64,000 nucleotides of DNA from Oerskovia flava (GTDB taxonomy: Bacteria; Actinomycetota; Actinomycetes; Actinomycetales; Cellulomonadaceae), in the NCBI RefSeq assembly GCF_026163685.1, contig NZ_JAOXSR010000009.1:124001-188000 (forward strand). The letters run 5' to 3'. A program made the translations under genes and the position numbers. This document shows, piece after piece, positions 21,724 to 24,640 of the stretch. Every line of letters starts with the position of its first letter. Position 1 is the stretch's first letter. Below the pieces are notes generated by a model that was not told where the DNA came from, ran no database searches, and was given only the letters and a program-made list of their open reading frames with translations.

Positions 21724-22755
21724 TCAGCCCCCGGTACGCCGCGGAGGCGCACCCGTGCTGCCGCGATCGACGAGCTCGGGCGAGACGAACCGCACGACGT
21801 GCGGCTCACCGGGCCCGACCTCCCCTTCGATGCGGCGGACGAGCTGGCGGACCGCCATGCGGCCCAACCGGTCCGGCGCGCTCTCGATCGACGAGAACGG
21901 CAGGGAGAACGTGCGGGCGAACTCGTCCGAGTAGCGCCCGAGCACCGACAGGTCACCAGGCGCGGTGAGCCCCCGCTCGTGCAGGACGCTCGGCAGCGCG
22001 GCCGCGGCGGCCTCGTTGTTGACGAGCAGGCCCGTCGCGCCGGGGTGCGCGTCGAGCACCGCGTGCAGGTCGCGCCCGACCTCGGGCTGGTGCGAGGCGC
22101 CGAACACGGAGTGCAGGGTCACGCCTCGCTGGCGCGCCTGCTCGTGCGCGGCGTTCTGCAGGCGCCACACGTAGGCGCCGCCCCGCTCGACCACGTGGTC
22201 CGGCTGCGAGACCAGGACGAGCTCGCGGTGCCCGAGCTTGTAGAGGTGGTCGACCATCGCGCGGCCGGCCTCCTCGAAGTCGAGGTCGAAGACGTCGACG
22301 CCGGAGCAGTCCTCCGGGAGCCCGACGAGCGCGCCGGGCTGCCGCGCGGCCCGCAGCAGCGGGAGCCGCTCGTCGTGCTCGGCGACGTTGAGCAGGACGA
22401 CGCCGTCGACCATGCGTGAGTCGGTGATGCGACGCAGCGCACGCGTCCCGTCGTCCTCGGTGACGAGCAGGATGTCGTAGCCGAGCTCCCGCGCGGTGTT
22501 CGAGACACCGAGGATGTACTGCAGCATCGCCGGCGCGAACTCGTCCTCGAGGAACTGCGCGAGCAGCCCGATGACCATGGTCTGCGAGGTCGCCAGCGCC
22601 CGAGCGCCCGCGTTCGGGGTGTACCCGAGACTGCGCACCGCGTCCATGACGCGGGTGCGAACGTCCTCCGAGATCGCGCGCTTGCCGGACAGCGCGTACG
22701 ACGCCGTGCTGCGCGACACGCCTGCGACACGTGCGACGTCTCCGATGGTGGCCAC
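21724..22755 (-). CDS. LacI-family transcriptional regulator
   Basis: This is a 343-residue regulator. The GTG start at 22755 has GAGGAGG seven bases upstream and gives ATIGDVARVAGVSRSTASYALSG, the canonical LacI helix-turn-helix, then the hinge-helix region GYTPNAGARALATSQT. The periplasmic-binding-protein-like core follows. It is the first gene of the arabinoglycan operon. Two palindromes (22772-22783 and 22846-22859) lie directly before it, so it is probably autoregulated and releases DNA when it binds an imported sugar. Confidence 0.93.
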   Translation of the reverse strand: MATIGDVARVAGVSRSTASYALSGKRAISEDVRTRVMDAVRSLGYTPNAGARALATSQTMVIGLLAQFLEDEFAPAMLQYILGVSNTARELGYDILLVTEDDGTRALRRITDSRMVDGVVLLNVAEHDERLPLLRAARQPGALVGLPEDCSGVDVFDLDFEEAGRAMVDHLYKLGHRELVLVSQPDHVVERGGAYVWRLQNAAHEQARQRGVTLHSVFGASHQPEVGRDLHAVLDAHPGATGLLVNNEAAAAALPSVLHERGLTAPGDLSVLGRYSDEFARTFSLPFSSIESAPDRLGRMAVRQLVRRIEGEVGPGEPHVVRFVSPELVDRGSTGAPPRRTGG

Positions 22756-22771
22756 GATGCCCTCCTCTGTG

Positions 22772-22783
22772 CGAACCGGTTCG
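22772..22783. promoter_or_regulatory. LacI operator O1
   Basis: The perfect 12-base palindrome CGAACCGGTTCG lies 17 bases upstream of the lacI GTG. The core is identical to the site before the glycosidase at 16452. It probably mediates autorepression and control of the whole operon. Confidence 0.8.
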
Positions 22784-22845
22784 AAAGTAGCAGTCAGGAT
22801 CGCCTGATGGCAACAGTCTTGTGCGTTGGCGAACGGGTGATCCTT

Positions 22846-22859
22846 TCGAACCGATTCGA
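22846..22859. promoter_or_regulatory. LacI operator O2
   Basis: TCGAACCGATTCGA is a palindrome at six of seven pairs and differs from O1 by a single central base on one side. It is centred about 75 bases upstream of O1, a spacing compatible with DNA looping. It also sits near the divergent clpP promoter. Confidence 0.7.
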
Positions 22860-22903
22860 CGTTCGGGGTGTGGGGCGGGGCTAGCTCCTCTGCTGTGAGC
22901 CGC

Positions 22904-22918
22904 TCTGCCGACGGCAGA
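22904..22918. promoter_or_regulatory. PopR-type operator before the accessory clpP operon
   Basis: TCTGCC-GAC-GGCAGA is a perfect 6-3-6 inverted repeat 41 bases before the first clpP. From memory of the Streptomyces lividans literature, PopR control of clpP3-clpP4 needs exactly TCTGCC-N3-GGCAGA. The regulator gene at 24180-24554 is the obvious ligand. Confidence 0.8.
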
Positions 22919-22959
22919 TCCGCCCCTGCCGGCGCCGGTTCCGGGGGCACTGTGGAGGC

Positions 22960-23589
22960 ATGAGCGAGACATCGAAACGACCGCAGTTCACGGAGACCGT
23001 CCGGCGCGAGCTCTACGAGCGACGTGTGCTCGTGCTGGACGGAGTGCTCGACGACGACAACGGGGCGCTGCTGGCGACGCAGCTCATCACCCTGGCGACC
23101 GAGGACCAGTCAGCGGACATCTCCCTGTGGATCCACTCACCCGGTGGGTCGGTACCCGCGATGCTCGCGATCCGGGACGTCGTGCGCACGATCCCGAACG
23201 ACGTCTCGACGCTCGTGCTCGGCATCGCGTACAGCGCCGGGCAGTTCCTGCTCTCCGGGGGCACGAAGGGCAAGCGCAAGGCCCTCCCCCACGCCCGGGT
23301 CCTGATGCACCAGGGGTCCGCGGGGATCGGCGGCAGCGCCGTCGACATCGAGCTGCAGGCGGACGACCTGCGCCACACCCGGGACACCGTGCTCGGGCTG
23401 ATCGCGCGGGACACCGGGCAGCCGGTCGAGCGGGTCTTCGAGGACTCGCTGCACGACCACTGGTACACCGCCGAGGAGGCACGCGAGTACGGGTTCATCG
23501 ACACGATCGTCCAGTCCTTCGACGACTACAAGCCGCGGAACCAGATCACGCCGGGCTTCAGCGGCGCGGTCGGCGGAGGTGCCCGATGA
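22960..23589 (+). CDS. clpP: ClpP protease subunit, catalytically complete (clpP3-like)
   Basis: This is a 209-residue ClpP. The catalytic Ser92 is in GIAYSAGQF, His117 in RVLMHQG and Asp166 in HDHWYT. The oxyanion segment HSPGGSV is intact. The N-terminus is short, with no long propeptide. The gene overlaps the next clpP by ATGA. Known role of the family: barrel protease that degrades unfolded or tagged proteins delivered by ClpX, ClpC or related ATPases. The pair plus regulator and operator match the accessory clpP3-clpP4-popR locus of Streptomyces rather than the essential clpP1-clpP2 pair. Confidence 0.92.
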   Translation: MSETSKRPQFTETVRRELYERRVLVLDGVLDDDNGALLATQLITLATEDQSADISLWIHSPGGSVPAMLAIRDVVRTIPNDVSTLVLGIAYSAGQFLLSGGTKGKRKALPHARVLMHQGSAGIGGSAVDIELQADDLRHTRDTVLGLIARDTGQPVERVFEDSLHDHWYTAEEAREYGFIDTIVQSFDDYKPRNQITPGFSGAVGGGAR

Positions 23590-24173
23590 GCAGCTACACC
23601 ATCCCGAACGTCATCGCGCAGCACCCTCGCGGCGAGCGGGTCATGGACGTGTACTCACACCTGCTGACCGAGCGGATCGTCTACCTCGGCACCGCGATCG
23701 ACGCGGGGGTCGCGAACGCGCTCATCGCCCAGCTGCTGTTCCTGGAGTCGGACAACCCCGACGCCGACATCCAGCTGTACGTGAACTGCGAGGGCGGAGA
23801 CCCGAGCGCGGCGCTCGCGATCTACGACACGATGCGGTTCATCCGTCCGCAGGTCGCGACCACGTGCGTGGGGCAGGCGGTCGCCGTCGGCGCCGTCCTC
23901 CTCGCCGCCGGCGCCCCCGGCAAGCGGGCAGCCCTGCCGCACGCCCGGATCATCCTCCACCAGCCGGCGGCCCAGGGTCGCGGGACGATCCCGGACCTCA
24001 TCCTGCAGGCCGACGAGGTGGTGCGGATCCGCGCGGACATCGAGGACGTCCTCGCCCGGCACACCGGGCAGAGCGTCCAGACGCTGCGCGCCGACACCGA
24101 TCACGATCGCGTGTTCACCGCCGCAGCCGCCCGCGACTACGGCCTGCTCGACCACGTGATCGAGCAGCGCTGA
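23586..24173 (+). CDS. clpP: ClpP homologue lacking the catalytic serine (clpP4-like)
   Basis: This is a 195-residue ClpP fold. The position of the nucleophile, normally QAASMGA, reads QAVAVGA: residue 100 is Ala (codon GCC). His125 (IILHQP) and Asp174 (HDRVFT) remain. The usual SPGG before the oxyanion loop is CEGG. The rest is well conserved (ALAIYDTMRFIRPQ, LPHARIILHQPAAQG). The protein is therefore probably a non-catalytic ring or docking partner of the upstream ClpP. The two genes overlap by four bases, which favours balanced co-assembly. Confidence 0.9.
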   Translation: MSSYTIPNVIAQHPRGERVMDVYSHLLTERIVYLGTAIDAGVANALIAQLLFLESDNPDADIQLYVNCEGGDPSAALAIYDTMRFIRPQVATTCVGQAVAVGAVLLAAGAPGKRAALPHARIILHQPAAQGRGTIPDLILQADEVVRIRADIEDVLARHTGQSVQTLRADTDHDRVFTAAAARDYGLLDHVIEQR

Positions 24174-24179
24174 CGGGGG

Positions 24180-24554
24180 TCAGGCGGCCAGTGCGACGTC
24201 GGACCGGCTGAGCGAGGCGTGCGAGGTGGACGGACGCTGCGCCGCGATGAGGCTCTCGGCGATGTCGAGCGTGAGGTCGACCAGCGCGATGTCCAGGGCG
24301 CCCGTCACGGCGGCGATCATCTCGCTCGACGGCTCCTTGAGACCCCGTTCGATCTCGGACAGGTACTGCGGGGAGACCCCGGCGCGACGCGCGATCTCGC
24401 CCAGCGTCTCGCCGCGCTCGTGCCGCAGGCCACGCAACCGGTCACCGAGCATGTGCCGCCACAGGGGCTCACGCGGCTTCTTCGGCTCGGGAGGTGCCGC
24501 GGCGGGCAGCTCGGCAGCACTTCGAGGTCTCACGGTCACGACGTCTTCGGCCAT
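24180..24554 (-). CDS. popR: XRE-family regulator of the ClgR/PopR type
   Basis: This is a 124-residue protein. The helix-turn-helix at about 40-95 contains LRGLRHERGETLGEIARRAGVS and YLSEIERGLKEPSSEM, the ClgR/PopR signature. The gene is convergent with the clpP pair; the stops are six bases apart. The C-terminus is DVALAA, an ssrA-like Ala-Ala end. Family knowledge: ClgR and PopR activate clp genes and are themselves degraded by Clp through C-terminal alanines, which gives a feedback loop. The symbol is assigned from the operator match before the clpP pair. Confidence 0.82.
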   Translation of the reverse strand: MAEDVVTVRPRSAAELPAAAPPEPKKPREPLWRHMLGDRLRGLRHERGETLGEIARRAGVSPQYLSEIERGLKEPSSEMIAAVTGALDIALVDLTLDIAESLIAAQRPSTSHASLSRSDVALAA

Positions 24555-24640
24555 GGTCGATCGTAGGACGGCGGCCGGGCGCGTGGCAGCAGGATCTGCT
24601 CACAGCAGAGAAGCGCGCCTACCGAGTCTCGACCGGCCGG

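Follow-up and report, generated by a model that had tools for sequence, protein, structure and literature searches.

The closest described counterpart of the locus analyzed here is the PopR/clpP3-clpP4 circuit of Streptomyces lividans (Viala et al. 2000, 2002, as excerpted from PMC9765437, PMC9775585, and PMC12607617). It likewise comprises overlapping clpP3 and clpP4 genes, a convergent popR gene, tandem TCTGCC-N3-GGCAGA sites at 15-bp spacing, an equal operator to -10 distance, and a C-terminal AA degron on the regulator. In Streptomyces, ClpP1P2 acts together with ClpX to degrade PopR (PMC9765437), and double-alanine tails are the likely recognition site for degradation (PMC9775585). ClgR of actinobacteria shares the XRE-family core and the half-site spacing (N5 between inner triplets) with this type of regulator, whereas its half-sites are TTCGC and those of the PopR-type operator are TCTGC. 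The ClpP/ClpR cores of cyanobacteria and plastids likewise pair catalytic ClpP with a ClpP-like partner lacking a working triad; this partner, ClpR, is devoid of the whole triad and is built into mixed alternating rings of four ClpR and three ClpP3 subunits (PMC4673316). The circuit itself has already been described in Streptomyces; finding it elsewhere is a natural step beyond that.

The window, a stretch of 64,000 nucleotides from Oerskovia flava, carries a bicistronic clpP3-clpP4 pair linked to a PopR-type regulator (Table 1), the arrangement by which the PopR/clpP3P4 circuit is recognized. The two clpP genes overlap by 4 nt (ATGA). Both the overlapping gene pair and the convergent ClgR/PopR-type regulator ending in ALAA had been proposed in an earlier sequence-only reading of this DNA, and the gene calls and Pfam matches agreed with it. 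On the other side of the clpP3 promoter, a divergent LacI-family gene (minus strand, ending at 21724) is followed by a gene resembling a sugar ABC binding protein (21633-20359, minus strand), and the LacI-type palindromes CGAACCGGTTCG (22771-22788) and CGAACCGATTCG (22844-22859) lie in the promoter region of the former. These two genes probably constitute an unrelated sugar-uptake operon.

Table 1. Features of the clpP3-clpP4-popR locus, in window coordinates
Feature	Position	Strand	Remarks
Predicted PopR site 1, degenerate, TCTGCTGTGAGCCGC	22889-22903	+	-71 to -57 from the clpP3 start codon
Predicted PopR site 2, perfect palindrome, TCTGCCGACGGCAGA	22904-22918	+	-56 to -42 from the clpP3 start codon
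Predicted -10 of clpP3, CACTGT	22948-22953	+	Weak, without the first T; 6 nt before ATG
clpP3-like gene	22960-23589	+	Pfam PF00574, E 1e-51; catalytic subunit, ClpP1 paralogue
clpP4-like gene	23586-24173	+	Pfam PF00574, E 4e-65; predicted catalytically dead subunit, ClpP2 paralogue
C-terminal LAA codons and stop	24180-24191	-	Predicted Clp degron of popR
popR-like gene	24554-24180	-	XRE/ClgR family, 124 aa, convergent with clpP4, ends ...SDVALAA
Predicted -10 of popR, TACGAT	24560-24565	-	Canonical TANNNT; 5 nt before ATG
Second palindrome, predicted PopR operator of popR, TCTGCTGTGAGCAGA	24595-24609	-	-41 to -55

A family search, in which 141 of 222 genomes had a match at E 1e-57 or better, was extended with a Streptomyces-containing family, contigs of GTDB genomes, and plasmids, giving 170 non-redundant actinobacterial clpP3-clpP4 loci. 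Grouping by ClpP4 identity to the window separated 100 window-type loci (74% or more; Micrococcales, Streptosporangiales, Propionibacteriales, Tsukamurella, Embleya, and others), 46 "mid" or cellulomonad-type loci, mostly from the window's own family (including Cellulosimicrobium, Promicromonospora, and Cellulomonas, as judged by identical sequences), and 24 classic Streptomyces-type loci (the Streptomyces record L139 and same-family genomes of the same type), whose ClpP4 is only 53-59% identical to that of the window. Conserved features of the 170 loci were the clpP3-clpP4 operon, the operator tandem, the LAA tail, and the spacing of 29 nt described below; the regulator was convergent with clpP4 in 156 of them. 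The proposal that a PopR-type circuit is conserved outside Streptomyces thus gained support from the operators, the linked regulator, and its C-terminal end. Complete clpP3-clpP4-regulator modules were also present on records deposited as large plasmids, namely p1-WH99 of Prescottella equi (L140) and plasmid 10 of Tsukamurella tyrosinosolvens (L142), suggesting that the module may move between actinobacteria.

Upstream of clpP3, the perfect TCTGCC-N3-GGCAGA palindrome on which the sequence-only reading had centered was indeed found, directly adjoined at 15-bp periodicity by a second copy that had been overlooked and that carries two mismatches, both in its right half. The S. lividans operator has the same 15-bp tandem layout (TCTGCC-3N-GGCGAATCTGCC-3N-GGCAGA, as cited in PMC9775585), and the weak copy is accordingly what one would expect beside the perfect site rather than noise. 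Perfect TCTGCY-N3-RGCAGA palindromes (0 mismatches) occur just twice in the whole 4.11-Mb genome, before clpP3 and before popR, at a distance of 1.7 kb from each other. A search for the palindrome before clpP pairs of relatives, set beforehand as a check, recovered a site carrying one mismatch or none within 200 bp of clpP3 in 67 of 100 window-type, 34 of 46 mid, and 23 of 24 Streptomyces loci, against about 1% in dinucleotide shuffles, and tandem sites 15 bp apart recurred across the 170 loci. A chance origin was therefore rejected, given the genome-wide rarity of the palindrome and its conservation far above the shuffles in every group. The genome contains five TCTGC-N5-GCAGA sites in total; when the three further ones and 12 of the one-mismatch sites were checked as other PopR targets, none had a TANNNT at 28-30 nt, and only a loose NANNNT was seen at four of these 15 sites.

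The upstream operator of the tandem in Streptomyces-type clpP3 promoters (L139, L150-L172) is a conserved hybrid, with TCTGC on the left and a ClgR-like GCGAA on the right that is about 95% conserved at the changed positions. Such hybrid operators, also seen in some popR promoters, are possible sites of ClgR/PopR cross-talk or of heterodimer binding. We consider it highly improbable that the palindromes belong to ClgR or to the divergent LacI-family protein and that the linkage to popR is incidental: such an assignment would accommodate the mixed TCTGC and GCGAA half-sites of some Streptomyces and Streptosporangiales loci as well as the LacI-family neighbor in the window, but the clpP1 promoter region of the same genome carries a different, ClgR-like motif (TGCGC-N5-GCGAA), and TCTGC sites are kept amid quite different neighbors, for example in Streptomyces and Prescottella.

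The perfect palindrome before popR, which the sequence-only reading had missed, sets the window apart from the classic Streptomyces state, in which the popR promoter lacks a canonical operator. Canonical operators preceded popR in 54 of 93 window-type and 30 of 39 mid loci but in none of the 23 classic Streptomyces loci; the other 39 window-type promoters had no site at one mismatch or fewer, many of them containing TCCGC or GCGAA variants. The stronger statement that popR of Streptomyces lacks any operator was rejected: although no promoter had a canonical site, a hybrid TTC(A/G)C-N5-GC(A/G/C)(G/A/C)A site was present in 14 of 23, usually 33 nt from the -10 element. No description of an operator before popR was found in the literature searched, the founding PopR/ClgR papers (2000, 2004, 2005) lying outside that search.

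The distance from operator to -10 element is exactly 29 nt at both promoters of the window, which the sequence-only reading had likewise missed. Among relatives, a NANNNT lay exactly 29 nt past the second clpP3 site in 75 of 100 window-type, 40 of 46 mid, and 23 of 24 Streptomyces loci, whereas a full TANNNT at this position occurred in none of the three groups. Operator-bearing popR promoters had a TANNNT at 28-29 nt in 45 of 54 window-type and 14 of 30 mid loci. The shared spacing, with operators ending at about -42 and thus upstream of the -35 region, suggests an activator-like arrangement common to clpP3 and popR. The contrast between a crippled clpP3 -10 and a good popR -10 is read as tight activator dependence of clpP3P4 versus basal plus self-activated expression of popR. 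Because the start codons follow the -10 elements of the window by only 5-6 nt, both mRNAs are predicted to be leaderless, a further difference from Streptomyces.

We infer the activating polarity at popR from this promoter geometry alone, and it has to be weighed against autorepression, in which PopR would activate clpP3P4 while dampening its own synthesis, adding homeostatic negative feedback to proteolysis. Small XRE regulators commonly repress their own genes, RNA polymerase could be obstructed by one site at -41 to -55, and the canonical popR -10 could fire without an activator. Autorepression nevertheless appears rather unlikely to us, since the popR site covers neither the predicted -35 nor the -10 and its 29-nt spacing is identical to that at clpP3, where Streptomyces PopR is an activator (PMC9765437). 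Under the activator reading, the 29-nt spacing common to both promoters clearly predicts a switch that activates itself.

The best NCBIfam match of the regulator was ClgR (NF041677, an equivalog), at 69.6 bits against a curated cut-off of 170, which identifies it as a ClgR paralogue and not ClgR. A separate ClgR-like gene lies elsewhere in the same genome; its product is 39% identical to the PopR-like protein, and the recognition helices read SLGYLSE and SPQYLSE, respectively. The nearest solved structures were the ClgR entries 3f51/3f52 and 5woq, and the structure model was confident for residues 31-106, whereas confidence was low at the N-terminus and in the C-terminal tail. Within this tail, L122-A123-A124 was invariant in 22 aligned relatives, the flexible linker just before it being variable, and 140 of 156 regulators with a readable C-terminus ended in LAA; the window regulator has the AA tail. 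The earlier description of a "self-destructing regulator" was imprecise, as ClpP1P2, and not the regulator itself, would be the destroyer by analogy with Streptomyces. The genome's own ClgR-like protein (L006) ends in LQPVG, without the AA tail of PopR, and the region upstream of clpP1 in the clpP1P2 locus (L001) contains the ClgR-like site TGCGCCGTCAGCGAA.

The residues of the two peptidases were consistent with the active/inactive pair proposed beforehand. ClpP3 of the window has an intact Ser-His-Asp triad, and ClpP4 reads GQAVAVG where E. coli has GQAASMG, the nucleophile Ser being replaced by Ala with His and Asp kept. Across the 170 loci, the ClpP3 triad was intact in all and the ClpP4 triad broken in 133. 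The lesions differed between groups: Ser had changed to Ala in 89, Gly in 5, and Asp in 1 of the 100 window-type proteins, and to Ala in 7 and Gly in 7 of the 46 mid-type proteins, whereas Streptomyces ClpP4 has lost His (His to Gly, GQP for HQP; 24/24), a difference that had escaped the sequence-only reading. A sequencing error or single-lineage quirk was rejected as the source of the window's Ala on the basis of these counts. A complete ClpP4 triad was found in 37 loci (32 cellulomonad-type, 5 window-type); inactivity is therefore not universal, and the notion that ClpP4 is never active was dropped. The five window-type proteins (L095, L111, L117, L120, L124) read AVSVG or AISVG, with the nucleophile Ser in an otherwise dead clade, possibly reflecting a regain of catalysis. 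On the ClpP4 tree, the triad had to switch between the intact and the broken state at least 10 times, 5 of these switches being forced by well-supported branches, with loss and regain not separable by counts. Neither the loss of ClpP4 catalytic residues, including the missing His of the Streptomyces protein, nor its repetition was found described in the literature searched, a search that did not cover the founding PopR/ClgR papers.

In the phylogenetic tree, ClpP3 joined housekeeping ClpP1 and ClpP4 joined ClpP2, both groupings having 100% SH-aLRT support. This fits a duplication of the whole clpP1-clpP2 pair, and the same main groups appeared in the ClpP3 and ClpP4 subtrees. At two of the positions whose aromatic residues bind the ATPase loops, ClpP4 retained Tyr (E. 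coli position 62, 169 of 170 loci) and Phe, Tyr, Trp, or His (position 82, all 170); at position 82, ClpP3 showed Leu, Thr, Ile, Val, Ala, or Met and never an aromatic residue. In Streptomyces ClpP1P2, the Ser of ClpP2 is dispensable and ATPases are docked by ClpP2 alone (PMC9765437); docking in M. tuberculosis ClpP1P2 also proceeds through ClpP2 only (PMC4416901). The residues of the accessory pair parallel this experimentally known split of roles, and ClpP4 looks like a ClpP2 relieved of catalysis. Unlike ClpR, ClpP4 has usually lost one triad residue (in the window Ser only), groups with actinobacterial ClpP2, and, on the model of ClpP1P2, is predicted to make up a ring of its own.

ClpP4 might instead act as a pseudo-protease, dominant-negative or regulatory, that holds back ClpP (ClpP1P2 among them) and not as the ring that docks ATPases in a functional ClpP3P4 protease. 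In S. hawaiiensis, ClpP1 oligomers are disrupted by ClpP-ADEP (PMC12607617), so accessory ClpPs can exert their effect through mixing, and ClpP4 is dead in most lineages. We nonetheless regard a restraining role as very unlikely, because every one of the 170 loci has an intact ClpP3 partner, the main groups of both subtrees match, the docking residues are retained, and clpP3clpP4 can replace clpP1clpP2 for viability of S. lividans (PMC9765437).

We therefore favor, with a probability of roughly three in four, a conditional accessory Clp module in which PopR would activate clpP3P4, popR would be positively autoregulated, ClpP3 would cut, and ClpP4 would dock. PopR would bind the tandem TCTGC-N5-GCAGA sites and activate the clpP3-clpP4 promoter with its poor -10, and through the single site at equal distance it would activate its own, stronger promoter. 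In healthy cells, housekeeping ClpP1P2 would remove PopR through its LAA tail and keep the module off; when ClpP1P2 is inhibited or overloaded, PopR would survive and activate popR and clpP3P4, so that ClpP3P4 is made. The self-activation loop would give a sharp switch, and in the resulting peptidase, ClpP3 would supply all active sites, with ClpP4 as a structural ring docking ClpX or ClpC. PopR binding, the polarity of activation, degradation of the window PopR, and the ring arrangement are predictions from sequence, and the role given to housekeeping ClpP1P2 is carried over from Streptomyces. In S. lividans without ClpP1P2, ClpP3 expression continues (PMC12607617), which indicates that ClpP3P4 does not obviously switch PopR off, so that added self-activation would prolong the on-state. 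Whether actinobacteria outside Streptomyces have a PopR switch that is latching and under positive autoregulation, responds to lost ClpP1P2 activity, and builds a half-dead barrel, with repeated and varied lesions in one ring and none in its partner, seems to us evenly balanced.

ClpP is an antibiotic target, and a backup core switched on at ClpP1P2 failure has been documented as a means by which S. lividans escapes ADEP (PMC12607617); the backup module is present in many actinobacterial genera besides Streptomyces. The repeated loss of catalysis in the ClpP2-derived partner only is a natural experiment supporting a division of labor in which one ring cuts and the other docks, and it makes the question of whether seven active sites are enough for the barrel directly testable.
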